Origin: Bacteroidota bacterium
Lineage (GTDB): Bacteria; Bacteroidota; Bacteroidia; Chitinophagales; Saprospiraceae
DNA: 48,641 bases
Direction: 5' to 3'
NCBI GenBank assembly: GCA_020160935.1
Contig: JAIUPL010000038.1
Location: 1 to 48,641 of the forward strand
Shown: in pieces, positions 2,707 through 48,471 of the stretch
Position numbering within the stretch: the stretch's first letter is position 1
Layout of the letters: the number at the start of each line of letters is the position of its first letter
Made by a program: the position numbers and the translations under genes
Notes under the pieces: generated by a model
What the model was told of the DNA's origin: nothing
Seen by the model: the letters and a program-made list of their open reading frames with translations, nothing else
Database searches by the model: none

Positions 2707-2870
2707 GTTTTTGTGTTTTTGTGTTTTGGTGTTTTTGTGTTTTTGTGTTTTGGTGGGGCTTCGCTCTTGGCATTGGCAGATAATTTGGCCGGGAAATCAC
2801 GACCCAACGCCAAGAGCGAAGCCCACAAAAACACAAAAACACTAAAACACCAAAACACTAAAACCCCAAA
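2707..2870. repeat. Palindromic element, family A (GTTTTKGT arms)
   Basis: It lies between the convergent VCBS and NrtR genes. The left arm (2707-2754) is tandem GTTTTTGT/GTTTTGGT units. The core GGGGCTTCGCTCTTGGC (2755-2771) pairs with GCCAAGAGCGAAGCCC (2809-2824). The right arm (2825-2870) is the complementary CACAAAAA/CACCAAAA/CACTAAAA series and reaches the stop codon of the minus-strand gene. The loop is 37 nt. Family A units contain no stop codon, so spurious open frames run through it. Confidence 0.9.
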
Positions 2871-2871
2871 A

Positions 2872-3573
2872 TCAAATATCAAAACTATACCCTTCCGCCA
2901 CAAACTGGTCGTATCGTTCGCGGTCGAACTGATACAGTTTGGCGGGGCGGTGCGCCACACCTTCCTGCATTTCGGCGCACTCGACGAGTACATTCATCGA
3001 GAGGATTTTTTTGCGGAAATTGCGTTTGTCCAGGCCCTTGTTTTTGGGAAGGTTCAGCACGGATTCGTACAATTGTTGCAGTTCGGTGAGCGTGAATTTT
3101 TCGGGCAACAATTCGAACCCGACGGGTGCATTGCGCACTTTGCGCTGGAGGCGTTGCAGGCAAATATCGAGGATTTCATTGTGGTCGAACGCCAGTTCGC
3201 CTACTTCTGAAATAGTGTGCCAGCGCGCCGATTGAGCAAAAGAAGCGGGCGTGAGGGTAAAATCGCTGATTTTTATCAGCGAGAAATAGGCCACAGTGAT
3301 GACACGCCCGAGCGGATGGCGATTCACGGCGCCAAAAGTACGCACCTGCTCGAGGTACACCCCGCGCAAGCCAGTCAGTTGTTCGAGCACGCGCTCGGCA
3401 GCCGTATCCAGGTCTTCATTCGGATACACCAGATCGCCCGGCAGAGCCCATTTCCCGCGGAAAGGGGCCGCACCACGCTGAATCAACAACACTTTCAGTT
3501 CGCCGCCGTCAAAACCAAAAATGACGTTATCAACAGAAAAAGCCGATTTAAAAAAACTTTCGACTTCGCTCAT
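2872..3573 (-). CDS. NrtR-type Nudix-fold transcriptional regulator
   Basis: The protein has 233 residues in two parts. The N-terminal Nudix fold (about 1-150) has the box region LPGDLVYPNEDLDTAAERVL followed by EQLTGL. The C-terminal winged helix (about 155-233) includes FTLTELQQLYESVL and the KGLDKRNFRKKI stretch typical of NrtR proteins. The catalytic box should read REUxEE but is RVLEQL here, and the expected Gly is Asp. It is therefore probably a ligand-sensing regulator, not a hydrolase. NrtR family members bind ADP-ribose-type ligands and control NAD or sugar genes. The start at 3573 gives MSEVESFF; the frame is open 55 codons further upstream without family similarity. It is divergent from the HU-SPOR gene. 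The target genes are not visible. Confidence 0.85.
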   Translation of the reverse strand: MSEVESFFKSAFSVDNVIFGFDGGELKVLLIQRGAAPFRGKWALPGDLVYPNEDLDTAAERVLEQLTGLRGVYLEQVRTFGAVNRHPLGRVITVAYFSLIKISDFTLTPASFAQSARWHTISEVGELAFDHNEILDICLQRLQRKVRNAPVGFELLPEKFTLTELQQLYESVLNLPKNKGLDKRNFRKKILSMNVLVECAEMQEGVAHRPAKLYQFDRERYDQFVAEGYSFDI

Positions 3574-3597
3574 ATTTTCACAAGTTTGTAATGGAGG

Positions 3598-3633
3598 CCA
3601 AAAATACGGGCTTATTGTTGTTTTTACACCAAA
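3598..3633 (-). promoter_or_regulatory. Putative promoter of the NrtR-like gene
   Basis: On the minus strand TATTTTTGG (3598-3606) fits TAnnTTTG, with TTTG (3630-3633) 23 nt upstream, slightly longer than usual. It is 25 nt from the chosen start codon, which supports the start at 3573 over the longer reading. Confidence 0.45.
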
Positions 3634-3679
3634 GCCGGCAATGGATTTTTTTTCCGGCTCAACATTACAGCAAATCGGC

Positions 3680-3707
3680 TTGGATACGGTAAATATCCTA
3701 TTTTTGC
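3680..3707 (+). promoter_or_regulatory. Putative promoter of the HU-SPOR gene
   Basis: TATTTTTGC (3699-3707) is an exact TAnnTTTGC match, with TTG (3680-3682) 16 nt upstream. The implied leader before the ATG at 3889 is about 175 nt. The rest of this 315-nt divergent gap shows no other feature. Confidence 0.5.
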
Positions 3708-4919: not shown

Positions 4920-5318
4920 ATGCTGCGCATCGAACACATCGGCATTGCCGTACGCGACCTGGAGGCCAGTAACGAGTTGTTCCGCAAACTACTGGGCTCC
5001 GAACACTACAAAACAGAATCTGTAGCCAGCGAACACGTCACCACCTCTTTTTTTCAAATTGGAGAAAGCAAAATCGAACTGCTGGTGGCCACCGATCCGG
5101 AAAGCCCGATCGCCAAGTTTATCGAAAAACGCGGCGAAGGCATCCACCATATCGCATTTGAAGTAGCCGATATCCACGCAGAAACTGCTCGCCTCGAGTC
5201 GGAAGGATTTATCGCACTCAACCGTGAGCCCAAACGTGGCGCCGACAACAAATTGGTCGTTTTTCTGCACCCGAAGACGAGTAACGGGGTGTTGGTGGAG
5301 CTGTGCCAGAGTTATTAA
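4920..5318 (+). CDS. mce: Methylmalonyl-CoA epimerase
   Basis: The 132-residue protein is a vicinal oxygen chelate (glyoxalase-type) protein of normal length for the family. It should interconvert (R)- and (S)-methylmalonyl-CoA in propionyl-CoA and branched-chain amino acid metabolism. Metal-ligand motifs are visible: HIGIAV near the N-terminus, HHIAFEV in the middle and VELCQ at the C-terminus. RGEGIHHIAFEV and the PKRGADNK loop are typical of epimerases. It lies 5 nt after the HU-SPOR gene. The last codons and the TAA stop (AGTTATTAA) already belong to the first unit of the family B repeat that follows. Confidence 0.92.
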   Translation: MLRIEHIGIAVRDLEASNELFRKLLGSEHYKTESVASEHVTTSFFQIGESKIELLVATDPESPIAKFIEKRGEGIHHIAFEVADIHAETARLESEGFIALNREPKRGADNKLVVFLHPKTSNGVLVELCQSY

Positions 5319-5455
5319 GTTATTGGTTATTAAGTTATTAGGGGTGGTAGTGGACCATTATTACATTTGTTGGGCGTCCATTTTTGTGTGGCCAAATAAA
5401 TGCAATGATGGCCCCTTACCCCCCCTAATAACTTAATAACCAATAACTTAATAAC
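5310..5455. repeat. Palindromic element, family B (AGTTATTA arms)
   Basis: It lies between convergent mce and msrB. The left arm (5310-5341) consists of AGTTATTA/AGTTATTG/GTTATTA units and contains the mce stop codon. The right arm (about 5422-5455) is its mirror. The core is an imperfect palindrome: AGGGGTGG and CCATTATTACATTT on the left pair with AAATGCAATGATGG and CCCCCCT on the right. Each unit carries TAA on the strand that reads into the element. Confidence 0.88.
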
Positions 5456-6024: not shown

Positions 6025-6306
6025 TGATGATGAGGGTTGATGGGGGTTGATAGGGTTGATAGGGTTGATAAGTGTTGATGAGGGTTGATGAGGGTTGATA
6101 TTCACCGGCTCGGGCAAGGGCCATTTTTTCTTCATCGAGCCGATGAATATCAACCCTCATCAACCCTCATCAACACTTATCAACCCTATCAACCCTCATC
6201 AACACTTATCAACCTCATCAACCCTATCAACCTCATCAACCCTATCAACCCCATCAACCCCATCAACCCCATCAACCCCATCAACCCCATCAACCCCATC
6301 AACCCC
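6025..6306. repeat. Palindromic element, family C (GGGTTGATGA arms), extended right arm
   Basis: The left arm (6025-6098) has units GAGGGTTGAT, GGGGGTTGAT, AGGGTTGAT and the variant AAGTGTTGAT. The core ATTCACCGGCTCG pairs with CGAGCCGATGAAT around 6100-6149. The right arm (about 6150-6306) starts as an exact mirror of the inner left arm, including the variant ATCAACACTT, then runs about 80 nt longer into a uniform 9-mer array. It fills the gap between msrB and the EAD11-like gene, both on the minus strand. A nearly identical core occurs in the element at 20185-20373. Confidence 0.9.
6244..6306. repeat. Seven perfect ATCAACCCC tandem copies
   Basis: Seven uninterrupted 9-mers make up the outer end of the family C right arm. 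Such a uniform array suggests recent replication slippage and is likely to vary in copy number between strains. The remainder of the gap (6307-6408) shows no gene or clear signal. Confidence 0.9.
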
Positions 6307-6408
6307 ATTTACGTATCCCAACGCTCTTTCGGCTTTCAGCCATCAGAAATAAGTAGAAAATGACAGGAAAACGTTCGCCAGCCGACAAAAGGACGTGACT
6401 GGCGGCTA

Positions 6409-8785: not shown

Positions 8786-9567
8786 TGTCCGAAACCCAGA
8801 CACTTACCAGACTGCTTAAAATGGCCCGGCTAAACGGCCGACCAGAAATTTTCCATTCCATACAGGGAGAAGGGAAAAGCCTTGGTATTCCTTCCATATT
8901 TGTGCGCACTTCCCTGTGCAACCTGCACTGTATCTGGTGCGACACCGACTATACCTGGAACTGGACCAATACCCGCTTCCCGCACGTGCATGATGCCCTG
9001 CCGGGGTATCAAAAATTTCAGAAAAAAGACTGGGTGGCCGAGTGCTCCATGGAAGAAATTGCCGACTCCGTGGCTTCCTTTCCCTGCTACAATGTCATCC
9101 TGACCGGTGGCGAACCGATGCTGCAACAGCCCGCCCTCACGGAACTGATGCATACCCTGCGTACGTTATCAGCGCGTTACCGATTTGAAGTGGAAACCAA
9201 TGGCACCCTCCGGCCCGATGCAGCCTTCGATGCCATCATCGATCAATACAACGTATCGCCCAAACTCGAAAACAGCAACAACAGCCGCAAACTGCGCGAG
9301 CGGCCGGCTGCGCTGCGCTTTTTTGCACAAAGCCCGAAAGCCAATTTCAAATTTGTGCTCGCAGCAGAAAATGACCTGGCAGAAGTGATTCAGTTGATGG
9401 AAACCTACCACATCGACCCCGAAAAAACCTGGTTGATGCCAGAAGCAACCGAACGCGAGGTTTTGCAGGAAAAACGACAATGGCTGGTAGAAATCTGCAA
9501 ACAATTCGGCTTCCGTTATTCCGATCGCCTGCATGTGCAGATTTGGGGGAGCAAGAAGGGAGTGTAG
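8785..9567 (+). CDS. queE: 7-carboxy-7-deazaguanine synthase QueE
   Basis: The 260-residue radical SAM enzyme converts 6-carboxytetrahydropterin to 7-carboxy-7-deazaguanine in queuosine/preQ0 synthesis. The cluster motif CNLHCIWC (Cys45, Cys49, Cys52) has the usual C-x3-C-x2-C spacing. FHSIQGEGKSLGIPSIFVR and LTGGEPMLQQ are hallmark QueE segments, and ETNGT and SPKLENS match the core. No other que gene is adjacent. The start overlaps the stop of the histidine kinase by one base. The final codons and stop (GGAGTGTAGAGAGAG) run into a lone family D repeat arm. Confidence 0.92.
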   Translation: MSETQTLTRLLKMARLNGRPEIFHSIQGEGKSLGIPSIFVRTSLCNLHCIWCDTDYTWNWTNTRFPHVHDALPGYQKFQKKDWVAECSMEEIADSVASFPCYNVILTGGEPMLQQPALTELMHTLRTLSARYRFEVETNGTLRPDAAFDAIIDQYNVSPKLENSNNSRKLRERPAALRFFAQSPKANFKFVLAAENDLAEVIQLMETYHIDPEKTWLMPEATEREVLQEKRQWLVEICKQFGFRYSDRLHVQIWGSKKGV

Positions 9568-9632
9568 AGAGAGTGAGAGGGTGAGAGGGTGAGAGAGTGA
9601 GAGGTGAGAGAGTGAGAGAGTGAGAGGTGAGA
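9566..9632. repeat. Lone family D arm (GTGAGAGR), no mirror arm
   Basis: About eight GTGAGAGG/GTGAGAGA/GTGAGA units follow directly on the queE stop codon. Unlike the two-armed elements, no complementary CTCTCAC series follows; the sequence goes straight into the promoter region of the next gene. Confidence 0.85.
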
Positions 9633-10803: not shown

Positions 10804-10811
10804 GAATTTAA

Positions 10812-10945
10812 GATATCTGATTACATGATGTACGATCTCCGATTGGATAGAAGATTTGAGATTTTTGATTGAGTACATCTCAATCAATTATAAATTAAAA
10901 AATCTTCAATCCAATCGTACATCGTACATCATGTAATCAGATATC
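10812..10945. repeat. Palindromic element with plain (non-tandem) arms
   Basis: A perfect 25-bp inverted repeat (10812-10836 with 10921-10945, starting GATATCTGATTACATGATG) extends inwards with near-perfect pairing (CGATTGGA..GAAGATTT with AAATCTTC..TCCAATCG). An inner hairpin GATTGAG/CTCAATC sits in the loop. Only a small duplication in the right arm (ATCGTACATCGTACATC) recalls the tandem-repeat arms of the other elements. It sits between convergent genes like them. Confidence 0.88.
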
Positions 10946-10951
10946 ATCAAT

Positions 10952-11773
10952 CTACTTGATTCTCGCCGCCAGCATCAGCCTTTTTACCCGTTTTTGTGCT
11001 TCTGTTTTTGTTTCCGGATCGGCCAGACGTTGCAGGCCCGTCCAGGAGGAGAAGCCGTATTCTTTGGCTACCATATTCCGGAATCCATCTTCAGCAGGTG
11101 AAACAGCCGAAGCAGCAGGTTGTGCGGTCGGTTTGCTTGTACCTTTTGAAACGGTTTTAGGCGTCATTTTTTTCTCGGGCATCATATGCAGCGATGCCGA
11201 TGCGACCGGTACTTCTTCCGGGAAATAGCGCATCAGGTCGTATTGCTGCATCAATTTTTGCATACTCCAGCCATAAGGGTATGATTTCAGCGCAGCACTC
11301 ACGGATTTGATTTGCTCGCCGGCATGCTGGCCGGCGTCGCGTTTCAACTGGCTTTTCGAGTAATTGCCTATGTAGGACTGTACCAATACGTGGGCCAGCA
11401 GCACCTGCGGCCGCACGTTGTAGTCTTCGGCAATGTCTCTTACCGTCGATTTCCATTGTTTAGCGGTGGAGGATACAAATTCGGCATCGTCGTAGAGGTT
11501 TTTCAACTGCTCGGAAGCAGACTGGCTGCGTTCTTCTTCCTGCTGCACGGCTTTTTCTTTTCTGGAAGCCGATTTGCTGCTTTTAGAAGGATGCAGGGCA
11601 ATAGCACGTGGCCTATCGGGCATGTCTGCCTCGCTGGAAATGTTGTATTCCGATACGCGTGTGTCTTTATCGGCGCTCCGGAGCCCTTCTTTTTTACCGA
11701 TAAAAAGGAAAATTACAACGGCAGACATGCCTGCTGCGGAAAGAAAACCAAAGAATTCGAAGAAATTTTTCAT
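10952..11773 (-). CDS. Membrane-anchored degenerate glucosaminidase-like protein
   Basis: The protein has 273 residues. An N-terminal membrane anchor (about 5-27, FEFFGFLSAAGMSAVVIFLF) is followed by a Ser/Lys-rich linker. A helical domain (DIAEDYNVRPQVLLAHVLVQ then SYIGN) looks like the lysozyme-type helix of the neighbouring glucosaminidase (IPASITLAQGLLETNAG). The catalytic Glu of LLE is replaced by Gln in LVQ, so it is probably non-enzymatic. The C-terminal 60 or so residues (FRNMVAKEYGFSSWTGLQRL) are of unknown type. I place the start at 11773 (MKNFFEF). The open frame continues upstream, but only through the repeat element. The repeat arm touches the ATG, which leaves no room for an ordinary ribosome binding site. 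It lies downstream of rnpA and the glucosaminidase on the same strand. Confidence 0.7.
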   Translation of the reverse strand: MKNFFEFFGFLSAAGMSAVVIFLFIGKKEGLRSADKDTRVSEYNISSEADMPDRPRAIALHPSKSSKSASRKEKAVQQEEERSQSASEQLKNLYDDAEFVSSTAKQWKSTVRDIAEDYNVRPQVLLAHVLVQSYIGNYSKSQLKRDAGQHAGEQIKSVSAALKSYPYGWSMQKLMQQYDLMRYFPEEVPVASASLHMMPEKKMTPKTVSKGTSKPTAQPAASAVSPAEDGFRNMVAKEYGFSSWTGLQRLADPETKTEAQKRVKRLMLAARIK

Positions 11774-12050
11774 GGTGAGTAGTGAGTGGTGAGTAGTGAG
11801 TGGTGAGTAGTGAGTGATGAATAATGGAGGGTTTGCGTGAGGGATGGCCTCATGCGGATTTGAAACAATGATTGCCAGCATACCAGATTTGCAAGAATGT
11901 TGGCCCAATGGCAGGTTTGCAAAAACGATGGCATGCACCCTGCAATGGGCCGGCAAACTATGTCAATATTTCAAATGAGGCAAAGCCCCACACAAACGCT
12001 CCATTATCCACTACTCACCACTCACTACTCACTACTCACCACTCACCACT
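11774..12050. repeat. Palindromic element, family E (GTGAGTR arms), long core
   Basis: The left arm (11774-11819) is GTGAGTA/GTGAGTG units adjoining the start codon of the minus-strand gene at 11773. The right arm (about 12008-12050) is the mirror and contains the TAG stop of the gene ending at 12032. The core is unusually long (about 190 nt): ATAATGGAGGGTTTGCGTG pairs with CACACAAACGCTCCATTAT, and GCCTCATGCGGATTTGAAA pairs with TTTCAAATGAGGC. Inside is a degenerate direct repeat (AGATTTGCAAGAATGTTGGC / AGGTTTGCAAAAACGATGGC). Confidence 0.88.
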
Positions 12051-13688: not shown

Positions 13689-13710
13689 GCATAGGGAACA
13701 ATTTTATTGT

Positions 13711-13820
13711 TGTGTTTTAGTGTTTTAGTGTTTTGGAGGTGCTTCGCTCTTGGGTTTATTAGAAATACCAAGAGCGAAGCACCTCCAAAACACCAAAACA
13801 CTAAAACACAAAAACACCAC
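13711..13820. repeat. Palindromic element, family A, at a divergent gap
   Basis: Left arm GTTTTAGT/GTTTTGGA units (13711-13734). The core GGAGGTGCTTCGCTCTTGG (13735-13753) pairs perfectly with the complement at 13768-13786 across a 14-nt loop. The right arm is CACCAAAA/CACTAAAA/CACAAAAA to 13820. It lies upstream of both rpmH (outside its promoter) and dsbD. The core GCTTCGCTCTTGG is identical to that of the element at 2707-2870. The 131 nt from here to the dsbD ATG show no other feature. Confidence 0.9.
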
Positions 13821-16968: not shown

Positions 16969-18405
16969 ATGCCATATTTTTCGTTGAGTAAGACCCTGAC
17001 TTGCCTGCTGACCTTCGTGCTGCTGAGCGCCTTTATGCCTGGCCCTGTCGACCCGCCCGAACACCACACCGGCAAGGTTTGGCTCACTACCGGCGACGGC
17101 TCCGTTCGCCTGCAGCCCACGGCTACGGTACCTTTCAAAAAAAAGGGTGATTCCAAAGCGCTTACGATCGAAGTGAACCCCTCTGTCGAATACCAGAAAA
17201 TCCTGGGATTCGGGGCCACTATGACCGGTTCGTCGGCTTATATCCTCGATCATCACCTCAACGACCAGCGCCGGAAGGAGTTGATGGATTCACTCTTCAG
17301 CCACGAACACGGCATCGGTATTTCATACCTGCGTATGACCATTGGCGCGAGCGATTTTTCTACCCACACATTTTCCTACAATGACCCGCCGGAAGGCATG
17401 ATAGATACCAAACTAAGGTATTTTTCTATCGACCCTGATCGTCAAAGGCTCATTCCGAGGCTCAAAGAAGCCATGGCCATCAATCCCGACATCGAAGTGA
17501 TGGGATCGCCCTGGAGCGCACCTGCCGCCTGGAAAACCAGCGGAAGTATGATTGGCGGCAAACTCAAACCCAATGTACAGCCCGCTTTTGCCAACTACTT
17601 TATTCAGTATGTCCGGGGTTTTGGCGCAGAAGGTGTAAAGATTTCGGCCATTACCATTCAAAATGAGCCTGAATTCGAGCCAAAAGGGTATCCGGGCATG
17701 CTCATGACGGCCGAAGAGCAACGTGACTTTATCAAACATTACCTGGGCCCCAAATTTGCCGAAGCCGAGATCGACACCAAAGTGGTGGTGTATGATCACA
17801 ACTGGGATCATCCGAATTACCCCATCAGTATTCTCGACGACTCTATTGCCCGAAAATATGTGGACGGCTCGGCTTTCCATTGTTATGGCGGCGATGTGGC
17901 CAATCAAAGCAAGGTACACGAAGCCCATCCGGATAAAAACATCTATTTCACCGAATGTTCCAGCGGCGGCTGGAGCGGGCCCTGGCGCGATGATTTGATG
18001 TGGAAATTCAAAAACCTGTTCATCGGAAATATGCGCAACTGGGCCACCTGCGTCCTGCTCTGGAACCTCGCACTCGATGAAAACAATGGCCCTACCAACG
18101 GCGGTTGCATGGATTGCCGTGGCGTGGTAACAGTGCGCTCCAATGGCACTTACGAGCCTACCATCGATTATTACTCGCTTGGACACCTCAGCCGTTTTGT
18201 GCGGAAAGGCGCTGTGCGCATCGCCTCCACCGACCTGTCTGCTCAAAATCTCGACAATGTGGCGTTCAAAAACCCCGATGGTTCAAAAGTGCTGGTGGTA
18301 ATGAACAACCAGGAGGCCGCCCGCTCCTTTAATGTAAAAAGCCCGGAAGGCATGGCTACGCTGGATATTCCGGCGTATTCGGTGGTAAGTTTTGTGTGGG
18401 AGTAG
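16969..18405 (+). CDS. Glycoside hydrolase family 30 (glucosylceramidase-like)
   Basis: The 478-residue exported enzyme has a signal peptide (to about residue 24) and a (beta/alpha)8 barrel with a C-terminal beta domain. GH30 landmarks are FGATMTGSSAYIL, YLRMTIGASDFS, SPWSAPAAWKT, the acid/base Glu in IQNEPE (Glu233) and the nucleophile Glu in FTECSSGGW (Glu329). Members hydrolyse beta-glucosides or related beta-linked sugars; the exact substrate cannot be told. The C-terminal NNQEAARSFNVKSPEG to VVSFVWE is the usual domain ending. The ATG at 16894 would add 25 residues before the signal peptide and is less likely. The stop codon abuts a family A element. Confidence 0.9.
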   Translation: MPYFSLSKTLTCLLTFVLLSAFMPGPVDPPEHHTGKVWLTTGDGSVRLQPTATVPFKKKGDSKALTIEVNPSVEYQKILGFGATMTGSSAYILDHHLNDQRRKELMDSLFSHEHGIGISYLRMTIGASDFSTHTFSYNDPPEGMIDTKLRYFSIDPDRQRLIPRLKEAMAINPDIEVMGSPWSAPAAWKTSGSMIGGKLKPNVQPAFANYFIQYVRGFGAEGVKISAITIQNEPEFEPKGYPGMLMTAEEQRDFIKHYLGPKFAEAEIDTKVVVYDHNWDHPNYPISILDDSIARKYVDGSAFHCYGGDVANQSKVHEAHPDKNIYFTECSSGGWSGPWRDDLMWKFKNLFIGNMRNWATCVLLWNLALDENNGPTNGGCMDCRGVVTVRSNGTYEPTIDYYSLGHLSRFVRKGAVRIASTDLSAQNLDNVAFKNPDGSKVLVVMNNQEAARSFNVKSPEGMATLDIPAYSVVSFVWE

Positions 18406-18587
18406 GTGTTTTGGTGTTTTTGTGTTTTGGTGTTTTGGTGTTTTTGTGGGCTTCGTGCATGGCGTCGGAGAGCAAAAATTACAAAGGCAATTAATAATTT
18501 TTGGGAGCATTCCCAAAAATGCCATGCGCGAAGCCCACAAAAACACAAAAACACAAAAACACCCAAACACAAAAACACAAAAATCTT
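18406..18587. repeat. Palindromic element, family A, with inner hairpin
   Basis: The left arm (18406-18443) starts on the base after the GH30 stop. The core GTGGGCTTCGTGCATGGCG (18444-18462) pairs with GCCATGCGCGAAGCCCAC (18519-18536). The right arm, CACAAAAA units with one CACCCAAA, runs to 18587. The loop holds a second perfect hairpin (TTTTTGGGA-GCAT-TCCCAAAAA, 18496-18517). It lies between two genes on the same strand, so here it separates tandem transcripts. Confidence 0.9.
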
Positions 18588-18648: not shown

Positions 18649-19518
18649 ATGGAACGCAAAGATTTTCTCAAAAAAGGCTTGATGGGTACCGGCATGTTCG
18701 CCGCTTCTGCTGCACTCGGCAATGTTGTAAAAAACAACAACGACGAACTGAAAGACCTGGACATCATCGGCTTCAACCACCTTCCACTTACCAAATCCAA
18801 TGTCATGGCAAATACCGTCTTGCACAAAGCCGACACGCGCGGCATGGCCAACCACGGCTGGCTTCAAAGTTATCATACCTTCAGTTTCGCCAACTACTAT
18901 AACCCTGAGCGCATGCACTTCGGTGTGTTGCGGGTACTCAACGACGATACCGTACAGGGCGGCATGGGCTTCGGCAAACACCCGCACGACAACATGGAGA
19001 TCATCTCCATTCCGCTCGAAGGCGATCTGGAACACAAGGACAGCATGGGCAACGTGACGGTCATCCGCAACGGAGATGTGCAGGTCATGAGCGCCGGAAC
19101 GGGTATCACCCACAGCGAATACAATAAAAACACAGAAAAAACGGTCAAATTCCTGCAAATCTGGGTGTTCCCCAACAAACGCAACGTCGCCCCGCGCTAC
19201 GACCAGATTACCCTGAAACCGGAAGACCGCAAAAACAAACTCCAGCAAATCCTCTCGCCCAACCCCGATGATGCAGGTGTATGGATTCACCAGAATGCCT
19301 GGTTCCACCTCGGCGATTTCGATGCTGGTGTGAGCAGCGATTACCAGATCAAAGCCCCCGGCAATGGCGTGTATGTGTTTGTACTGAACGGCGACCTGAG
19401 CGTGAACGGCCAGCAACTCAATCGGCGCGATGGCCTCGGCATCTGGGATACCGACACCCTCCATATTGCTGCCGACAGCAAAGCGGAGTTTTTGCTGATG
19501 GAAGTGCCGATGAATTAG
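18649..19518 (+). CDS. Pirin-family protein with N-terminal export-like segment
   Basis: The 289-residue bicupin protein belongs to the pirin family. The metal-site region HPHDNMEIISIPLEGDLEHK and the following GTGITHSEYN match pirin ligands. Pirins include quercetin dioxygenases and redox-linked regulators. Unusually, the protein starts MERKDFLKKGLMGTGMFAAS, similar to twin-arginine leaders of the RRxFLK type but with RK in place of RR. Whether it is exported is uncertain. The start at 18649 is the first ATG after the repeat element; the frame stays open upstream only because family A units lack stops. Confidence 0.88.
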   Translation: MERKDFLKKGLMGTGMFAASAALGNVVKNNNDELKDLDIIGFNHLPLTKSNVMANTVLHKADTRGMANHGWLQSYHTFSFANYYNPERMHFGVLRVLNDDTVQGGMGFGKHPHDNMEIISIPLEGDLEHKDSMGNVTVIRNGDVQVMSAGTGITHSEYNKNTEKTVKFLQIWVFPNKRNVAPRYDQITLKPEDRKNKLQQILSPNPDDAGVWIHQNAWFHLGDFDAGVSSDYQIKAPGNGVYVFVLNGDLSVNGQQLNRRDGLGIWDTDTLHIAADSKAEFLLMEVPMN

Positions 19519-19664
19519 TTATTGCTTATTAGTTATTAAGTTATTAGGGGTAGGTAAGTGTCTATTTACACGAATTCCCGGCCACACATCCAGTGAAGCC
19601 AAAAATATGTGTAAGCAAACCCTTACCTACCCCTAATAACTTAATAACCAATAACTTAATAACT
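19516..19664. repeat. Palindromic element, family B
   Basis: It lies between convergent pirin and DUF6702 genes. The left arm TTAGTTATTGCTTATTAG.. includes the pirin stop. The core ATTAGGGGTAGGTAAG (19543-19558) pairs perfectly with CTTACCTACCCCTAAT (19622-19637). The right arm mirrors the left (AACTTAATAACC.. to 19664). Outer arms and the AGGGGT start of the core match the family B element at 5310-5455. Confidence 0.9.
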
Positions 19665-34430: not shown

Positions 34431-35705
34431 ATGCAAGTATTAGAACTGTCCAAACCCGAGCGCTCGCTCCGCGCTGAAATCACCCTCGAAGGTTCCAAAA
34501 GTATCAGTAACCGGGCATTGATCGTGCTGGCCCTGGCTGGCGCTGATCCTGCCGAATGGCTCGAAAGGTTATCGGCTTCCAAAGATACCGTCACACTCCA
34601 GCGGCTGCTCACACAAAAAGACAGCGACGTGTACGATGCAGGCGATGCAGGTACTACTTTCCGGTTCATGACAGCCCGACTCTGCCTGCAAGCAGGCACC
34701 CAAACCCTCACGGGTTCTGCCCGCATGCTCGAGCGGCCCATCGGAGCGCTGGTGACAGCCCTGCGCAGCCTGGGCGCCGATATTGAATACCTGGGGCAGG
34801 AAGGTTATCCGCCGCTGCGTATCGGGCCGCCTGCCCATCTGGGCGCTCATTCGCGCGAAGTGCGCATCCATGGCGGCACCAGCAGCCAGTTTTTGTCGGC
34901 CTTGCTCATGATCGGACCTTGCCTGCCGCATGGCCTCGAACTCGTGCCGGAGGGCGACCTGGTGTCGCGCCCGTACCTCGAAATGACGCTTCAACTCATG
35001 CGCTATTTCGGTGCCCAGGCAGAATGGCAAGGCGATCGGATCGTGGTGGCGCCGGGCGTTTATACTCCCAAAAAATTTGTTGTGGAAGCCGACTGGTCGG
35101 CCGCATCTTATTGGTATGCGCTGGCTGCCCTGGCCGATGCGCCGGATTTGCGGCTCAACGGATTGTTTGCCGACAGTTGGCAAGGCGATGCAGTACTGTC
35201 AGACATGATGCAATCCTTTGGTATTCAAACAGATTTTGATGAAAAAGGAATCCATCTGACATCCTCCGGCAAGGCGCCCAAGCCTGTTTTTGAATGGAAT
35301 TTCCTGGAATGCCCCGACATTGCCCAAACGCTGGCCGTGGTGTGTGCAGGGCTCGGCATACAGGGCATCTTCAGCGGGCTGGAAACCCTGTCGATCAAGG
35401 AAACAGACCGCATTGCCGCCATCCGCAATGAACTGGCCAAGGTGGGTGTTTCATTCAGCAAACTCCCTCCGCATTTCAATAAAAAACTGCCCGGACAAAC
35501 CTTTTACCACGTAGATGGCAAAGCCCACTGGCAGGATACGCCCCAATTCGCTACCTATGGCGACCACCGTATGGCTATGGCATTTGCGCCGCTGGCCTTG
35601 CTCGCTCCTATCCGGATTGAAGACCCTCTGGTGGTTAGGAAATCGTACGGGAGTTTTTGGGAACATCTGGGAAGTGTAGGCTTTACAAGAGATGTGAGAG
35701 GGTGA
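34431..35705 (+). CDS. aroA: 3-phosphoshikimate 1-carboxyvinyltransferase (EPSP synthase)
   Basis: The 424-residue enzyme makes EPSP from shikimate-3-phosphate and phosphoenolpyruvate in the shikimate pathway. Motifs are GSKSISNRAL (Lys23), DAGDAGTTFRF, GGTSSQFLSALLM, SRPYLEMT, EADWSAASYWYALAA, SIKETDRIAAI and YGDHRMAMAFA, all with the expected residues. The AGTTFRF variant of the usual AGTAMR loop is common in Bacteroidota. I start at the ATG at 34431; a longer frame adds nine unrelated residues. The final residues (DVRG) and the TGA lie in family D repeat units. Confidence 0.94.
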   Translation: MQVLELSKPERSLRAEITLEGSKSISNRALIVLALAGADPAEWLERLSASKDTVTLQRLLTQKDSDVYDAGDAGTTFRFMTARLCLQAGTQTLTGSARMLERPIGALVTALRSLGADIEYLGQEGYPPLRIGPPAHLGAHSREVRIHGGTSSQFLSALLMIGPCLPHGLELVPEGDLVSRPYLEMTLQLMRYFGAQAEWQGDRIVVAPGVYTPKKFVVEADWSAASYWYALAALADAPDLRLNGLFADSWQGDAVLSDMMQSFGIQTDFDEKGIHLTSSGKAPKPVFEWNFLECPDIAQTLAVVCAGLGIQGIFSGLETLSIKETDRIAAIRNELAKVGVSFSKLPPHFNKKLPGQTFYHVDGKAHWQDTPQFATYGDHRMAMAFAPLALLAPIRIEDPLVVRKSYGSFWEHLGSVGFTRDVRG

Positions 35706-35934
35706 GAGGGTGAGAGGGTGAGAGATGTGAGAGGGTGAGAGAGTGAGAGAGTGAGAGATGTGAGAGGGTGAGAGATGTGAGAGGGTGAGAGAGTGAGAGA
35801 TGTGAGAGGGTGAGAGATCGTAGAGTGTACCGCTTTGCTCTTGGAATACAATAGTGCAGGACGAAGCGGTACACTCTACGATCTCTCACATCTCTCACCC
35901 TCTCACATCTCTCACTCTCTCACCCTCTCACCCT
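35688..35934. repeat. Palindromic element, family D (GTGAGAGR arms), longest two-armed example
   Basis: The left arm (35688-35815) has about 15 units of GTGAGAGG, GTGAGAGA and GTGAGAGAT, beginning inside aroA. A perfect 20-bp core (GATCGTAGAGTGTACCGCTT, 35816-35835) pairs with 35864-35883 across a 28-nt loop containing GCTCTTGG. The right arm runs to 35934 next to the TAG of the TonB receptor gene. The left arm is more than twice as long as the right. Confidence 0.92.
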
Positions 35935-38304
35935 CTAAAACTCAAGCCTCCAACTCGCGTTCGGGATCAGCCCCAACTGCAATTTCTTTTCCACCTGATC
36001 GGTATACGGATCGTAGAAATTGTAAGCCACATTTTTTTGCATGGTCGCATTCTGGAAGTCCATCGCGAAGGTGCTGTTGCGGCGATTGCCGAGGTTGCGT
36101 TTCCAGTACACCCGCAGGTCGAGTCGGAAATAGCCGGGCAGTTGTTGGCTCCAGCCATTGGTCGTGATAAAGCGCGTTTCGCCTGCTGCACGCGAAGCAT
36201 CGAGGTCGACGGGCATGACGCGGTATCCGCCGGTATAAGTGAGGCGACCATTCACACCAAAAACTTTTATTTTTTCATCGCTGCGGGGCGTACGTTGCCA
36301 TTCGCGGCCGGCTGTTACGTTGAAAATATGCCCCAGATCCCAGCGGGAGGCGCGCCAGGCGCCGTCGCTGCCCTGGTAACGCGAATCAAACAAGGTAGCA
36401 TTGGCAGCCATAAACCAGCCCCCGGTAATGTAACGTTCGAGGTTGATTTCCAGCCCTTTGTTTTCGGCAATGCCGCGTGGTGTGAGTGAATCGTATTGTG
36501 CTATTTCCGTGATATTGAACATGGAGAATGCCCCGTCGAGGGTTGAAACCTGGATGTCGGACATCCGGTGCAGGAACAATTCCGATTTGAGGGCCCAGGC
36601 TTCACCCCATTGCCAGGTATGGCGCAGCCCGAGTTGGCGGCTTTTCACCAGCCCTGCCAAACGGTTAGGTGAAGTCTGCTCTGGAGGGGGCAATTCGCCC
36701 CGGTAATCGGCTTTCAGCCACAAGGGGTTCAACTGGCTATACCAGCCGTAAGCCAGGGTAAAGCGGTGGCTGCTCCCAGGGCGCCATGTGAGCGAAGCGC
36801 GCGGCTCGATACTTGCCTGGCGGTCGTCATCATGCCAGGAACTGTTGTACAAGTTGGATTGCAAGCCTAACTGAGCCGTCCAGTTCCGATTGGGCGCACT
36901 CCATTCCGCATTGACCCAGGGCTGCCACAGTATCCCCTGAATAGCGCCTGTGAAGCGCGTAACATTGGTGATATAAGAATTGCCTTCAAAAAAAACAGAC
37001 TGGATATTGCCGCCGCCCGACAGCCGCCATTGGTCGTTGAAACGGCGCTGGAGCGTGAGACTTAGCCCGGAGCGCCCTTCTTCCTGCCTGTCCAGTTCCC
37101 GCCTGTTATTGGAAGCCGCATCGCGCTTGCTGATTTGCCCGCTGCTCAGGTAAGCAATTTTCATCCAGGTACGCGCTCCCAGCGGTTTCCAGTACGAAGC
37201 GCCTGCGATAAAAGTTTTCGAGTCAAAATTGATGTTGAACAGGTCTTTGTAGTGTGCTACATCGGACGAGTCCTTGCGTTTGAAAATATTGTCGTTGAGG
37301 CCGCCCATGCCGAATACGCTCCATTCGCCACCTTTTTTTCCGGAAAAATGGAGTTTAAAAGACAGGTCCTGAAAATGAATCTGCTCGTCGCCCAGCGGAA
37401 TGCCCAACTGGTTCAGCAGCCCGACTGTAGAGTATCGGTAGTTGACGAGGTAGGAGTTTTTGCCTTGTCCGAACAGGGGGCCTTCTGCGGCCATATCCAG
37501 TCCAATCAGGCCAGCCTGTGCAGTAAACTCATGCTGGTGGGTATTGCCCCGGCGCAGGTTCATATCCATCACGCCGCCCAGGGCATCGGCATAGCCAGCC
37601 GGGTAATTGCCGGTGAGCAGCGCGGAGTTGTCGAGCATTTGTGCCGAAAACATCAGCACACCGCCGCTGGCCGCCGCCGGCCGGTCGCTGAAGGTGCCCG
37701 CGTTGGGCAGGTGGTTCGGATTGACCACATCCAGGCCTTCCATTTTCCATCGTACGGAAGCAGGATTATTGCCCCTGATACTGAGCCCATTGGCCTGGTC
37801 GTCGTTGCCCGAAACGCCCGGATATGCCATGGCCAGGCGGGCAGGGTCGAAAAAGGTGGCCGGGAACCGCAGCGTCTGGTCGCGGCTGAGCGGAATTTCA
37901 GCCAGTGGTTGTTGGGTTCTTCGGCCGGGCTGGTTGGCCGTAATCAGCAGTTCGGGCAATTGGCTGACGGAATGCTGCAAAGCCAGCGTCAGCACCTGCT
38001 CTTTTCCGGCGACGAGGTTGATTTCGGAAATCGTCTGGCTTTCAAAACCCGGCATGGTCACTTCGCAAGCGTAATATCCGGGACGAAGGTTTTCAAAAAT
38101 AAAGGCGCCGTCGGCATCCGATGTCTGCGAAAATGGAGCAATGTTGTTTCGAAGGATGACCGTAGCACCGGCCACAGGTCGGCCATTATCAACATTGCGT
38201 ACTACGCCGCGCAAGGTTTGCGCTTGCAACAATCCGGTGAACACAAGAGCAAGGGCGGCAAAAATAAATCGGTAAATCAAGGACGGTAATAAAGAGGTAG
38301 ACAT
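35935..38304 (-). CDS. TonB-dependent outer-membrane receptor
   Basis: The 789-residue protein has a signal peptide (to LLQAQ). A carboxypeptidase-regulatory-like domain follows (about 30-115, TLRGVVRNVDNGRPVAGATV then FENLRPGYY). The plug domain (about 130-250; LSIRGNNPASVRWKMEGLDV) precedes a beta-barrel ending in the aromatic C-terminus ASWRLEF. This is the CarbopepD_reg_2/TonB architecture of Bacteroidota. No SusD partner is adjacent, so it is not a SusC/D pair. The substrate is unknown. The minus-strand sequence TATCTTCGC about 110 nt upstream of the start may be a promoter -7 box. Confidence 0.92.
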   Translation of the reverse strand: MSTSLLPSLIYRFIFAALALVFTGLLQAQTLRGVVRNVDNGRPVAGATVILRNNIAPFSQTSDADGAFIFENLRPGYYACEVTMPGFESQTISEINLVAGKEQVLTLALQHSVSQLPELLITANQPGRRTQQPLAEIPLSRDQTLRFPATFFDPARLAMAYPGVSGNDDQANGLSIRGNNPASVRWKMEGLDVVNPNHLPNAGTFSDRPAAASGGVLMFSAQMLDNSALLTGNYPAGYADALGGVMDMNLRRGNTHQHEFTAQAGLIGLDMAAEGPLFGQGKNSYLVNYRYSTVGLLNQLGIPLGDEQIHFQDLSFKLHFSGKKGGEWSVFGMGGLNDNIFKRKDSSDVAHYKDLFNINFDSKTFIAGASYWKPLGARTWMKIAYLSSGQISKRDAASNNRRELDRQEEGRSGLSLTLQRRFNDQWRLSGGGNIQSVFFEGNSYITNVTRFTGAIQGILWQPWVNAEWSAPNRNWTAQLGLQSNLYNSSWHDDDRQASIEPRASLTWRPGSSHRFTLAYGWYSQLNPLWLKADYRGELPPPEQTSPNRLAGLVKSRQLGLRHTWQWGEAWALKSELFLHRMSDIQVSTLDGAFSMFNITEIAQYDSLTPRGIAENKGLEINLERYITGGWFMAANATLFDSRYQGSDGAWRASRWDLGHIFNVTAGREWQRTPRSDEKIKVFGVNGRLTYTGGYRVMPVDLDASRAAGETRFITTNGWSQQLPGYFRLDLRVYWKRNLGNRRNSTFAMDFQNATMQKNVAYNFYDPYTDQVEKKLQLGLIPNASWRLEF

Positions 38305-39407: not shown

Positions 39408-39409
39408 AT

Positions 39410-39551
39410 TAGTCCTGAGTCGTAAGTCCTGAGTCCTGAGTCTGTAGAGTACACCTATGTACCCTTGACATTTATTATGATAGATACCAAGGGTACATAG
39501 GTGTACTCTCCAGACTCAGGACTCAGGACTCAGGACTTACGACTCTGGACT
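39410..39551. repeat. Palindromic element, family G (GTCCTGA arms)
   Basis: It lies between convergent SPFH and peptidoglycan-binding genes. The left arm (39410-39445) is GTCCTGA units with one GTCGTAA variant. A perfect 21-bp core (39446-39466 with 39489-39509; AGAGTACACCTATGTACCCT..) flanks a 22-nt loop. The right arm (39510-39551) repeats the same unit order, with the variant mirrored as TTACGAC, and runs into the TAG of the minus-strand gene. Confidence 0.92.
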
Positions 39552-40752
39552 AATAATTAACTCCCAACGCCCTCAACGTTTCCAAATCCACATTCCCCAC
39601 AGGCAATCCCTTATCCTGCTGGAATTTTATGAGCGCGGCTTTGGTGCTAGCGCCCATGGTATTATCCGAAATGCCTTTGTAGTAACCCGCTTTGCGCAGC
39701 GCATCCTGTATTTGCCGTACAGTGTATCCGGTTACCTTTTCTCCACAGAGTACTTCTTTCCATTCTGAAAAACCGCCAGCGCGCACGAGTTTGCGTTTGG
39801 TGACGGTCACGTATTCCGGCGGCGTAGTTTCCGAGCGGGTGGTAGCGGGTGTGATAACTACCTTGGTAGGGGTGGCTTTGTATTCGGCCGGTATAATTTC
39901 TTCGCGATAAGACGCTGGCGTTTGCTGTATCTGACGTGTCACTGTAGTGCTCAGCGGGTCGGTGCGGCGAACTGTGACGGCCTTGTATTCGGCCGGTACA
40001 ATTTCCTCCCGAATGCTCGCAGGCCTTTTCAGGCGCTGCATGCTGCGGGTGCCCATCACGGCGGGCACTTCGACGGTTTTGTTGCATCCTGCATCGGGCT
40101 TGCCGGAGCCGTCGCAGCCTTTATTGACCCGGCGTGTAAGTGTCTGGTATTCAGCGGGCACTTCCACCATGCACCAGATCATACAATCATCCGGGTTGGC
40201 ATTCAGGCAATTAGCATCGGTGGTTTTCCGCGTCCATTTCATAACCGCAGGTTTTGTTTCGATGCGATCCGTGACTGTTTCATACGCGGGAGGCATGTAT
40301 TCTATCCGTATGGTGGCGGGCTCGACGACGTAGGATTCGCTGACGGTTTCGTAGACAGCAGGTGTCACCACGTATCGTTTGCTTTCTTCTTTTACCAGTA
40401 CATATTCTGTGGTGCTTTCTGCTGCCGTGTTACCAAACCGCTGGGCAGCCAGCGGAAGGTCCACTTTCAGCGTGGTGCTGGTAAATTTGGCAGGTGTAAC
40501 TAGAAAACGCCTGGATTCCTCTTTCACCAATTGGTACGCGTTTTTTGTTTCCACAACAGCAGGAACGGCGATGGCCTTGATCATGGCCGCTTTAATGGCT
40601 ACCTGTTCTGTGGTGGTTTCAAAAATATCGGGCATATAACACTTGGCATAACACTTCCCGGGTTGTGCATTGGGTGGGTTATCACCTGTTTGTGCTGAAA
40701 TTGTCGAGGTAAATCCCGTGACGAACAAGAGCAAAACCTTCCATTTTTTCAT
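39550..40752 (-). CDS. Exported repeat protein with peptidoglycan-binding domain
   Basis: The protein has 400 residues with a signal peptide (MKKWKVLLLFVTGFTSTISA). Most of it is a run of degenerate repeats of about 22-30 residues built on a Pro-Ala-x-Tyr core: TPAVYETVSESYVVEPATI, MPPAYETVTDRIETKPAVM, VPAEYKAVTVRRTDP, IPAEYKATPTKVVITPAT, PPEYVTVTKRKL. The last 60 residues are a PF01471-type peptidoglycan-binding domain (TVRQIQDALRKAGYYKGISD, TKAALIKFQQDKGLPVG). It is probably a cell-wall-associated envelope protein; the repeat function is unknown. The start at 40752 gives the signal peptide; the open frame upstream overlaps the gap and the HD gene end. Confidence 0.82.
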   Translation of the reverse strand: MKKWKVLLLFVTGFTSTISAQTGDNPPNAQPGKCYAKCYMPDIFETTTEQVAIKAAMIKAIAVPAVVETKNAYQLVKEESRRFLVTPAKFTSTTLKVDLPLAAQRFGNTAAESTTEYVLVKEESKRYVVTPAVYETVSESYVVEPATIRIEYMPPAYETVTDRIETKPAVMKWTRKTTDANCLNANPDDCMIWCMVEVPAEYQTLTRRVNKGCDGSGKPDAGCNKTVEVPAVMGTRSMQRLKRPASIREEIVPAEYKAVTVRRTDPLSTTVTRQIQQTPASYREEIIPAEYKATPTKVVITPATTRSETTPPEYVTVTKRKLVRAGGFSEWKEVLCGEKVTGYTVRQIQDALRKAGYYKGISDNTMGASTKAALIKFQQDKGLPVGNVDLETLRALGVNY

Positions 40753-42095: not shown

Positions 42096-42275
42096 GGTTG
42101 ATGAGGGTTGATGAGGGTTGATGAGGTTGATGAGGTTGAGAGTTGAGGGGTTGAGAGTTGAGGGGTTGATATTCAGTCAGTCATGTGAAGCAAAATCACT
42201 GTTATGCTGAGTGGCTGATCTCAACTTCTCAACCCCTCAACCCCTCAACTCTCAACCTCATCAACCTCATCAACT
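42096..42275. repeat. Palindromic element, family C mixed with GAGAGTTGAGG units
   Basis: The outer left arm is GGTTGATGAGG units and the inner left arm is GAGAGTTGAGGGGTT units (to about 42168). The right arm (about 42219-42275) mirrors both kinds in reverse order: CAACCCCTCAA and CTCTCAACC inside, CATCAACCT outside. The core (GATATTCAGTCAGTC with GCTGAGTGGCTGATC) pairs weakly. It lies between two minus-strand genes and touches the stop of the upstream one at 42274. Confidence 0.88.
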
Positions 42276-42855: not shown

Positions 42856-42888
42856 AGTCCTGGGTCGTAAGTCCTGAGTCCTGAGTCG
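42856..42888. repeat. Lone family G arm
   Basis: AGTCCTGGGTCGTAAGTCCT and the following GAGTCCTGAGTCG repeat the left arm of the element at 39410 almost base for base (one mismatch), including its GTCGTAA variant. No mirror arm follows. It sits just upstream of the start codon of the minus-strand Trp-repeat gene. Confidence 0.85.
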
Positions 42889-43299: not shown

Positions 43300-43303
43300 T
43301 ATA

Positions 43304-43344
43304 GTGAGTGGTGAGTAGTGAGTAGTGAGTGGTGAGTAGTGAGT
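43304..43344. repeat. Lone family E arm
   Basis: Six GTGAGTA/GTGAGTG units occupy most of the 50-nt gap between two minus-strand genes. A stretch of 38 nt (from 43304) has the same order of variants as the complement of the right arm at about 12008-12050, with no mismatch that I could find. No mirror arm. Confidence 0.85.
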
Positions 43345-47506: not shown

Positions 47507-47514
47507 GTCTACCA

Positions 47515-48168
47515 TCATTTATCCAGTTCATAAAGCCTGTACGTTTCAATTACTTTCACCATTTCTCCTTCAAAATCACTCACTTCCGATATTTTTTTGC
47601 CATCAAGGGCCTTGGCCCAGGCCTTCCAGTCCTTTCCGCAACTTTGTTGTAAGGTGGCAAAATCATTTCTTCCACTGAGGTATTTGCTAAAGTCGCGGAA
47701 ACTATCCCAGGCTTTATCATAATGGCGAATGCATACGCCATTTACCGTTTCGGTAGCGCCTTCCCATCCGCCTCCACATCCCAGACCGAAATAGTTGTGG
47801 TGTTCCATAGCCCAGTTTCTTTTGCCACTGAAACTATTGACGTAGGCACAAGCCAGTAAGACGGAAGCAGGAATCCCAAATTTTTCCTGTTCTCCTGCCG
47901 CCACTTTTCCAAATCGTTGGAGGAAAGGGATGGCTACCGTCTCCGGAATATCAGGCAGGTTGACACTGCTGCGTGATGCCCATGTGAAAAGGCTTGCTTG
48001 TGTCTCTTGTGAAGTGGCTATGGCGCCATTATCTGTAATTTTCTCTACATCCCGGCCTTTCCCGTCGTGTGCTGCCACGCTCAGCCAGTTCTTTTTTACA
48101 ATTGCAGCGAGAACCAGAATGATAACTGCAATAGGGAACCAATTTGTTTTAAAAAACTTCCATTTCAT
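47515..48168 (-). CDS. Membrane-anchored glucosaminidase-like protein lacking catalytic Glu
   Basis: The protein has 217 residues with an N-terminal membrane anchor (about 8-25, TNWFPIAVIILVLAAIV). The rest aligns with the glucosaminidase at 12032-12940: FGIPASVLLACAYVNSFSGK against IPASITLAQGLLETNAG, HNYFGLGCGG against NHFGIKC, DSFRDFSKYL against the FEVYQ region, and the end VIETYRLYELDK against IETYQLWRIDY. The catalytic Glu position is Asn (AYVNS), so it is probably inactive and may bind glycan strands or partner proteins. It is far from its two relatives. It has its own promoter. Confidence 0.8.
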   Translation of the reverse strand: MKWKFFKTNWFPIAVIILVLAAIVKKNWLSVAAHDGKGRDVEKITDNGAIATSQETQASLFTWASRSSVNLPDIPETVAIPFLQRFGKVAAGEQEKFGIPASVLLACAYVNSFSGKRNWAMEHHNYFGLGCGGGWEGATETVNGVCIRHYDKAWDSFRDFSKYLSGRNDFATLQQSCGKDWKAWAKALDGKKISEVSDFEGEMVKVIETYRLYELDK

Positions 48169-48243
48169 AGTGCGCTTTAGTTAGAAAGGTTTAAAAAAAG
48201 AGAATTAACCTCAAAAACCATTACTGTTGATTGTTAAGCGCTA

Positions 48244-48273
48244 CAAAAATAAATCATTTTGTTTTAAAAGCAA
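48244..48273 (-). promoter_or_regulatory. Promoter of the glucosaminidase-like gene
   Basis: On the minus strand TTG (48271-48273), a 19-nt spacer and TATTTTTG (48244-48251) match the Bacteroidota pattern. The leader is about 70 nt. Confidence 0.6.
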
Positions 48274-48313
48274 TTTTTTTGTTTTATTTTATCTCACCTC
48301 TCTCCCTGCTATA

Positions 48314-48471
48314 GAGATGTGAGAGAGTGAGAGATGTGAGAGATGTGAGAGAGTGAGAGAAGTAAGAGATGTGAGAGTTCGTAGATTGTACTTCTTCTTT
48401 AATAGAAATATTATAGCAAAGTGGAGCACTCTACGAACTCTCACATCTCTCACTTCTCACTTCTCACCTCT
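48314..48471. repeat. Palindromic element, family D
   Basis: The left arm (48314-48375) has GTGAGAGA/GTGAGAGAT units with one AGTAAGAGAT. The core AGTTCGTAGATTGTAC (48376-48391) pairs with GCACTCTACGAACT (48426-48439) with small mismatches. The right arm runs to 48471. The core TCGTAGAnTGTAC is shared with the family D element at 35688. Just outside, TCTCACCTCTCT (48292-48303) can pair with the first left-arm unit, the only case where a C-rich stretch comes first. Confidence 0.88.

Follow-up and report, generated by a model that had tools for sequence, protein, structure and literature searches.

The 48,641-nt contig JAIUPL010000038.1 of a Bacteroidota bacterium of the family Saprospiraceae, hereafter the window (contig C12 of a 5.84 Mb draft genome in 51 contigs), carries a series of long palindromes between its genes, most of them with arms made of short tandem words. 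An unbiased inverted-repeat scan (seed of 8, ungapped extension, score of at least 22, span of at most 320 nt) found 15 long inverted repeats, none of them inside genes, and the identical scan found none in three dinucleotide shuffles of the window. A repeat finder, Tandem Repeats Finder (TRF) and the scan agreed on the 15 palindromes, and TRF detected their arms together with three lone tandem arms, all at the places where a preliminary description of this DNA had put fifteen two-armed elements and three lone arms. The elements are 102-273 nt long. Periodicity was scored by a fixed rule, 11 of 14 matches at a period of 6-11, and by it 13 of the 15 have tandem arms. The preliminary description had allowed a single exception, at 10812-10945; that exception was confirmed, and the palindrome at 5311-5455 also fell below the threshold, although TRF gives a 15-nt GTTATTAAGTTATTG unit there. 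All seven of its arm families were recovered, and its picture of a constant architecture whose arm motif varies from locus to locus is supported. A known RNA family was rejected as an identity, there being no Rfam match at the gathering score within the window.

The AGTCCTG family (F1) is represented at 39408..39554 by heptamer arms around the core GTAGAGTACACCTATGTACCCTTG in a convergent gap. GTGAGAG(G/A) arms (F2) form two palindromes: one at 35688..35936 (GTGAGAGG/A octamers, core CGTAGAGTGTACCGCTTTGCTCTTGG), which overlaps the end of the 5-enolpyruvylshikimate-3-phosphate (EPSP) synthase gene at 34431-35705, and one at 48313..48471 (AGAGATGTG / GTGAGAG arms, core CGTAGATTGTAC), near the window end and with its right neighbour outside the window. 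Both GAGTTAT elements (F3) have heptamer arms and occupy convergent gaps, at 23339..23483, with the core ACTCACGTTGCTTTTGGC, and at 27822..27954, where an arm contains the stop of gene 24527-27841. The F4 word, GGTTGATGA(G), builds arms of 9-10 nt units at 6028..6308, flanked by two minus-strand genes, and there the arms are unequal, with about 17 units on the right and 7 on the left. It recurs at 20184..20372 in a divergent gap (core TTCATCGGCTCG) and, with other inner units, at 42096..42274, which has minus-strand genes on both sides and abuts the stop of 42274-42849. GTTATTA arms (F5) lie in two convergent gaps, 5310..5455, where the unit is GTTATTA(A) and the stop of the plus-strand gene (5318) falls within the arm, and 19514..19664. 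The F6 word GTGTTTTG makes GTGTTTTG/T octamer arms around the core GGGCTTCGCTCTTGGC in the convergent gap at 2707..2871 and GTGTTTTG/T arms at 18405..18583, immediately after the stop of the plus-strand gene 16984-18405; its third element, at 13707..13819 (GTGTTTTA/G arms, core GGTGCTTCGCTCTTGG), stands in the other of the window's two divergent gaps with an element. TAGTGAG heptamers (F7) form the arms at 11773..12050, between two minus-strand genes and at the stop of 12032-12940, and the palindrome lacking tandem arms, at 10806..10951, occupies a whole convergent gap.

The lone arms all read on the plus strand. One, of GAGAGAGT units, lies at 9560..9632, at the stop of the plus-strand gene 8785-9567; the other two, of AGTCCTG units at 42856..42887 and TAGTGAG units at 43302..43344, each have minus-strand genes on both sides. 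These two turn their C-rich side to the neighbouring stop, which gives the impression that a partner arm on the stop side has been lost. Separately, the convergent pair at 24527-30818 encodes a TPR-CHAT protein and a large helicase (AAA_11/AAA_12) that also gives a weak PD-(D/E)XK match; these are possibly defence or signalling genes.

Position and polarity at gene ends

Elements of this kind were counted in a sample of 848,641 bases (14.5% of the genome), in which, as in the window, genes were our own hexamer-scored calls with rough start positions. It held 130 palindromes with a score of at least 22, 86 of them with tandem arms of period 7 (53 elements), 8 (17), 9 (8), 10 (7) or 11 (1). The window, with 15 elements in 48.6 kb, is denser than the sample (15.3 per 100 kb), and extrapolation gives about 900 elements for the whole genome. 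The elements are extragenic and dispersed, none of the 130 lying within a predicted gene. Among gaps of at least 80 nt, elements occupied 49 of the 69 between convergent genes, 64 of the 203 in tandem orientation and 11 of the 112 divergent gaps.

Tandem-armed elements are placed directly behind stop codons. The adjacent stop lay at a median of 3 nt, with 84 of 106 within -30 to +15, and the adjacent start at a median of 63.5 nt, with 11 of 62 in that range. The space left beside a tandem-armed element between convergent genes had a median of 0.5 nt in contig C43 (8 pairs) and 8 nt in the window (5 pairs). Because this leftover is small against the median gap of 35 nt in the 41 element-free convergent pairs of C43, the element between convergent genes is the intergenic region itself, and it often invades the gene end. 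In the EPSP synthase (aroA) gene, the final codons and the stop are arm sequence, giving the tail GF-TRDVRG; the tails in relatives are GF-VVKR, GF-EVKS and similar.

Such a position would suit bidirectional intrinsic transcription terminators, since these are stable 3'-end hairpins enriched between convergent genes, and the folding energies of the window's 15 elements (-54.6 to -149.9 kcal/mol) are those of stable hairpins at gene ends. Runs of at least four T behind the stem, however, were near background: the transcripts of tandem-armed elements had one in 10 of 55 cases and those of the other elements in 3 of 38 (71-element sample), as compared with 14% of 1135 background 16-mers. In Flavobacterium, hairpins of this design also stand within two operons, atp and nuo, immediately ahead of the next start codon. 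Ordinary intrinsic terminators were rejected for the missing U-tract after the stem, and we consider bidirectional intrinsic terminators a very unlikely explanation.

The arms have a strong polarity. The outer left arm is richer in G than in C in 79 of the 86 tandem-armed elements, with 4 opposite and 3 equal, and a gene runs into the G-rich, stop-bearing arm first, from either side. Throughout the genome, the GAGTTAT...ATAACTC pattern was matched 112 times, some matches overlapping in one element, and the reverse order not once; when 247 genomes of the class were examined, 2, among them this one, had the forward order and none the reverse. Stops in all three frames within 36 nt were present in 90 of 172 arms read inward, 30 of 172 read outward and 47 of 690 random intergenic 36-mers. 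Two explanations offer themselves: translation may have to be halted ahead of the stem by the stop-bearing strand, or arms of any other kind may not be tolerated where genes end.

Families, cores and mirror-image change

The preliminary description had taken the core to be non-repetitive, and this did not hold. When 80-nt core stretches, which may take in inner arm sequence, were compared across the sample, 95 of the 130 elements matched another core at 75% or more over no less than 36 nt, and so did 9 of the window's 15. A shared arm word usually goes with a shared core, and such elements resemble dispersed copies. The sharp contrast once drawn with repetitive extragenic palindromes (REPs), as repeats that share one sequence, is not borne out either, most arm families being dispersed with a shared core of their own (21 AGTCCTG copies). 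The 21 aligned F1 copies have AGTCCTGAGTC... arms, next GTAGAGTNNACC, then a middle that varies and often CTTGGC; the loop is short and likewise variable. Expressed as normalised alignment scores, which are not plain identities, similarity within an F1 locus was 0.94 for the arms and 0.92 for the core halves, as compared with 0.85 and 0.80 between loci and 0.52 for the loops. The corresponding values for F2 (n = 5) were 0.86 and 0.81 within a locus and 0.78 and 0.72 between loci.

Contig C43 holds further variants. The element at 60867-61003 has composite mirrored arms, with GAGAGAG words outside and GAGTTAT words inside. Three palindromes with TTTGTG words (85357, 163779 and 307446) have ACTCTACGC ends, the reverse complement of the F1/F2 core word GTAGAGT, and lie about 80-205 nt away from both convergent genes without abutting them. 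A second class of palindromes, without tandem arms (CAAGCGTT...GGGCTTTAGCCCGTCGGGAC...GGCGC), occurs at 75580-75724, 158881-159036 and 191604-191755, and its copies differ in mirror image.

REPs, bacterial interspersed mosaic elements (BIMEs) and hairpin-forming REP doublets (REPINs) are dispersed extragenic palindromes with a possible role in mRNA stability or termination, and a REP or REPIN has a cognate Y1 transposase flanked by the same palindrome. Non-autonomous mobile repeats of this kind, or like miniature inverted-repeat transposable elements (MITEs), might insert behind stops and be moved by a transposase encoded elsewhere. This would account for the dispersed families with shared cores, for the F3 copies at window 27822-27949 and C43:60867, which by eye share core and loop in opposite orientation, and for an aroA-site element found in this genome only among the 14 read. 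As the preliminary description had it, no transposase was found in the window, among the 20 of its 39 predicted proteins scanned with Pfam; the other 19 were outside the scan. That description had also proposed to look for a co-occurring transposase gene in the complete genome. Two Y1_Tnp genes are present there. The palindromes that lie within about 1.5 kb of them (3.2-3.3 kb examined each), however, are ordinary REP-like ones, unrelated to the tandem-armed elements, and an origin from a REP-associated tyrosine transposase (RAYT) and its REPs was rejected on this ground. One of the two genes (L154 1067-2214, contig C29) has GTTGGCGAGGACGCCAAC... palindromes on both sides and looks like a classical RAYT-type unit. 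Mobility also fits poorly with arms that are tandem words differing between loci, and the different families at the single atpD-atpC site described below would demand repeated insertion at one point; we hold it to be unlikely. A REP is a palindrome of 20-40 bp in high copy (PMC3733652). Like REPs (compare PMC3733652 and PMC3116915), the elements here are dispersed extragenic palindromes; they differ in being longer, in having tandem-word arms of at least seven families and in that no matching RAYT was found.

The F1 copies also bear on how the arms stay paired. Among 861 aligned cells, 83 were changed on both arms in mirror image and still paired, and in 52 the arms differed (11 G-U, 21 A-C and 20 other), the copies being related and the cells not independent. 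F1 thus contains the mirrored multi-base changes without G-U intermediates by which template switching is recognised. Over all 130 elements, the non-Watson-Crick cells were 54 G-U and 52 A-C in tandem orientation and 40 and 47 in convergent orientation. Because selection on an RNA stem should spare G-U pairs, and no G-U excess was seen, these counts point to copying of one arm from the other at the DNA level, followed by neutral decay. Quasipalindromes are known to have one arm rewritten from the other in this way. Watson-Crick pairing without wobble bias, together with the convergent enrichment, could also be read as a role of the DNA itself, as cruciforms or protein-binding sites (a nucleoid protein, or supercoil relief between convergent genes). 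The anchoring to stop codons, however, is also seen in tandem orientation and inside operons, core matches between families are few, and such a role seems extremely improbable. Monttinen and Loytynoja (2022, PMC8794818) propose that hairpins of RNA genes are made by template switching, which yields perfectly paired stems and compensatory changes of several bases at once. The arm-to-arm copying is the likeness to our elements; the difference is that the consulted part of that paper concerns RNA genes and describes neither tandem arms nor a genome-wide repeat class.

Distribution and the atpD-atpC gap of Flavobacterium

A scan of GTDB contigs for GAGTTAT palindromes listed 80 matches. At least 76 Bacteroidota records carry one, from Saprospiraceae, Chitinophagaceae, Flavobacterium, Hymenobacter, Bacteroides, Candidatus Symbiothrix and others, and among the matches listed those outside the phylum came from one cyanobacterium, two Chloroflexi (one of them Anaerolineae) and one Armatimonadetes. 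A class restricted to Saprospiria was thereby rejected. An assembly artefact, a concern of the preliminary description, was rejected too, as independent genomes of four phyla show the same design. At the 80 loci listed, where genes were plain open reading frames with rough starts, the stop lay at a median of 1 nt (n = 83; 68 within -30 to +15), and 6 of 70 classified loci were divergent, as compared with 55 of 270 gaps of the same DNA.

Single words are patchily distributed. Of 198 class genomes searched for a bare GAGTTAT array, 20 had one with at most two mismatches. The F1 word turned up in 3 of 295 class genomes, and at the level of the order the F4 word was seen in one genome of 119, its own. 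Samples of seven family relatives (9.8-40 kb each) had no long inverted repeats, G142 and G272, with 1.0-1.2 kb only, being left out of the scan; beyond the family, the samples of G110 and G294 had none and that of G101 had one. Stretches of 200, 100 and 100 kb from three Flavobacterium genomes contained 41 further intergenic palindromes with a score of at least 18, some with periodic words (CGCAAAG, GATTTTA and others) and none with exact GAGTTAT arms. In one Flavobacterium convergent gap (L207 863-1456; G488 C9 60863-61456), a 101-nt palindrome occurs three times at a spacing of about 246 nt.

Five of the 80 listed GAGTTAT loci coincide: all lie in the atpD-atpC gap of Flavobacterium. In the search for more such gaps, 95 of 101 genomes matched, and the best 30 of the 95 (closest AtpC first) together with the earlier loci gave 34 gaps, 33 of which entered a tree; the 34th, L180, was read separately. 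All 34 gaps read had a hairpin and none was empty. Each of the 30 distinct gaps tested had a better fold than 98 or more of its 100 dinucleotide shuffles, and 23 of the 30 were significantly periodic. The words nevertheless differ. With labels assigned by eye (L160 fits its label poorly), the 33 gaps had GAGTTAT in 11, TTAGTTG in 5 (6 with L180), AAATTCC in 5, AAGTTAG in 4, TTCAGTG in 3, AATTGAT in 2 and singletons in 3. The site keeps its hairpin while the motif is exchanged.

The tree was built from atpD and atpC with the gap left out (33 rows). Placing the words on it takes 19 changes, and shuffled labels take 20.5, with 33 of 200 shuffles as low. Gap identity correlated with atpD distance at -0.22 and with atpC distance at -0.18, and the two gene distances correlated with each other at 0.86. 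Two species that differ by 13.6% in atpC and by 5.0% in atpD have the same 92-nt gap without a single difference, and three species 2.2-2.4% apart in atpD have three different hairpins. The words are spread over the gene tree as chance would spread them, and together these comparisons indicate that hairpins are exchanged between species at atpD-atpC. Pairs with the same allele were hardly closer in their flanks, with distances of 0.068 as compared with 0.077 in the nearest 150 nt of atpD and of 0.085 as compared with 0.079 in the first 90 nt of atpC. TTAGTTG arrays occur elsewhere, too, in the genomes that carry the TTAGTTG allele (7 genomes), which bears on the possibility that the swaps follow from a single dominant word per genome.

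Function, origin and relation to known repeats

Considering the placement, the polarity, the dispersed families and the persistent Flavobacterium site together, we assign a probability of roughly 0.4 to the reading that the elements are post-stop hairpins selected for their shape, with arms kept complementary at the DNA level and open to lateral exchange. According to this reading, the arms would lengthen and become homogeneous by replication slippage in steps of 7-10 nt, and template switching on the hairpin (quasipalindrome correction) would rewrite one arm from the other, giving the mirror-image differences. Whole hairpins would spread within the genome and, at least at the Flavobacterium atpD-atpC gap, pass between species by short-tract replacement. 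At its 3' end the transcript would fold into a hairpin of great stability, by which the upstream cistron would be protected or set off, a REP-like segmental mRNA stability, and this is the most likely job that can be inferred for it. The G-rich arm would supply stop codons in several frames and so keep ribosomes out of the stem. The AtpD:AtpC subunit ratio is 3:1, and at atpD-atpC that ratio would be a natural target of the hairpin. Since the hairpin is always present there while its words are swapped, the site suggests that structure matters and sequence is disposable; if shape alone is needed, any tandem-word hairpin would serve and words would turn over.

Several observations weigh against selected, exchangeable hairpins. 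At atpD-atpC, 7 of the 30 gaps were not significantly periodic, four of these being of the AAATTCC type, whose polarity is opposite, and close alleles often differ on one side without mirroring. The nuoA-nuoB hairpin is weaker: in 27 of 30 loci (L252, L259 and L265 were omitted, their nuoA end not being recognised), 16 gaps folded significantly and 14 were periodic, three were as short as 28-32 nt, and gap similarity tracked nuoB distance (-0.57) and not nuoA distance (-0.06). The F4 copies (n = 6) score 0.91 for arms within a locus, barely above the 0.89 between loci, and 0.89 for cores as compared with 0.83. The 11 occupied divergent gaps are places where a 3'-end role would be odd. Behind aroA, 11 of 13 family relatives have no inverted repeat with a score of at least 14 within 280 nt, and the remaining two (L237 and L239) carry an unrelated one; the presence of a hairpin at this site is not conserved. 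The two Y1_Tnp genes could still be movers of some of the families. Finally, the absent wobble bias is equally expected from simple neutral decay of freshly made palindromes.

This last point leads to the main rival, a neutral origin with purging elsewhere. Slippage and template switching would build palindromes anywhere, and the survivors would be those behind stops, where they do least harm, with no function. The missing U-tract and wobble bias and the arms frayed to unequal lengths (6028-6308) fit such an origin, the depletion in divergent gaps and genes fits purging, and the stop codons of the inward-read arm could be a mere condition of tolerance. Neutral by-products, however, should have left some of the atpD-atpC gaps empty after repeated hairpin replacement, and none of the 34 read was; nor would they explain 112 GAGTTAT matches in one polarity and none in the other, or 92 nt of complete identity at 13.6% atpC divergence, which is not expected unless recently transferred. 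Because the site was never empty in the gaps read and the polarity is strong, we disfavour a neutral origin and regard it as somewhat unlikely.

Short tandemly repeated repetitive (STRR) sequences and long simple sequence repeats (LSSRs) form a general heptamer repeat class close to these elements. Intergenic tandem repeats of about 7 nt are common to both, 53 of the 86 tandem-armed elements having period 7, but direct repeats without an inverted partner are the minority here, with 3 lone arms to 15 two-armed elements in the window. The preliminary description knew of no class with this design, and no genome-wide class of stop-anchored, tandem-armed palindromes, nor any paper on literal GAGTTAT words, was found in the open-licence literature searched, which is no proof of novelty; two close precedents nevertheless qualify the claim (PMC4679880, PMC4476775). 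Heptamer direct repeats (TAACTGA) occur in Beggiatoaceae, cyanobacteria and Bacteroidetes, with horizontal transfer suspected and its mechanism not found (MacGregor 2015, PMC4679880). Like the arms here, these repeats have 7-nt units in tandem between genes and a patchy occurrence in the same phyla, and their reverse complement, TCAGTTA, is one base off the F3 unit TGAGTTA; no two-armed palindromes are described in the consulted part of that paper. In the tRNA-Leu (UAA) gene trnL of Nostoc, the P6b stem of the group I intron is always built of NNTGAGT or TDNGATT heptamers, and these classes have replaced one another independently and repeatedly (Kaasalainen 2015, PMC4476775). Of our 53 period-7 left arms, 35 fit NNTGAGT (1.8% expected from base composition), none fits TDNGATT and 18 fit neither; the 35 represent four motif types, F1 and F3 above all, and are not independent, and the 33 arms of other periods were outside the test. 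The GATTTTA word of the Flavobacterium nuoA-nuoB gap fits TDNGATT by eye. P6b, too, is a hairpin with a stem of heptamers, but it is a single intron locus, whereas the elements here are intergenic, genome-wide and behind stops.

A broader form of our reading, possible but doubtful, is that these would be phylum-wide, interchangeable 3' hairpin cassettes: bacteria would keep a hairpin behind chosen stops, and a site would inherit its structure independently of its sequence, while slippage and arm copying within lineages and short-tract transfer between species replace the words wholesale. If this were true, the recurrence of NNTGAGT and TDNGATT from Bacteroidota to the cyanobacterial trnL intron would imply either ancient lateral spread or a preference for these words at the level of replication. 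Where stems show compensatory covariation, the usual inference is selection on RNA that passes through wobble intermediates; here stems vary in mirror image without a wobble excess. Such long palindromes may therefore serve as a warning that mutation mechanics alone can mimic strongly selected RNA families. They also make it testable, in culturable Flavobacterium, how long hairpins arise and stay paired and what purpose heptamer repeats serve.

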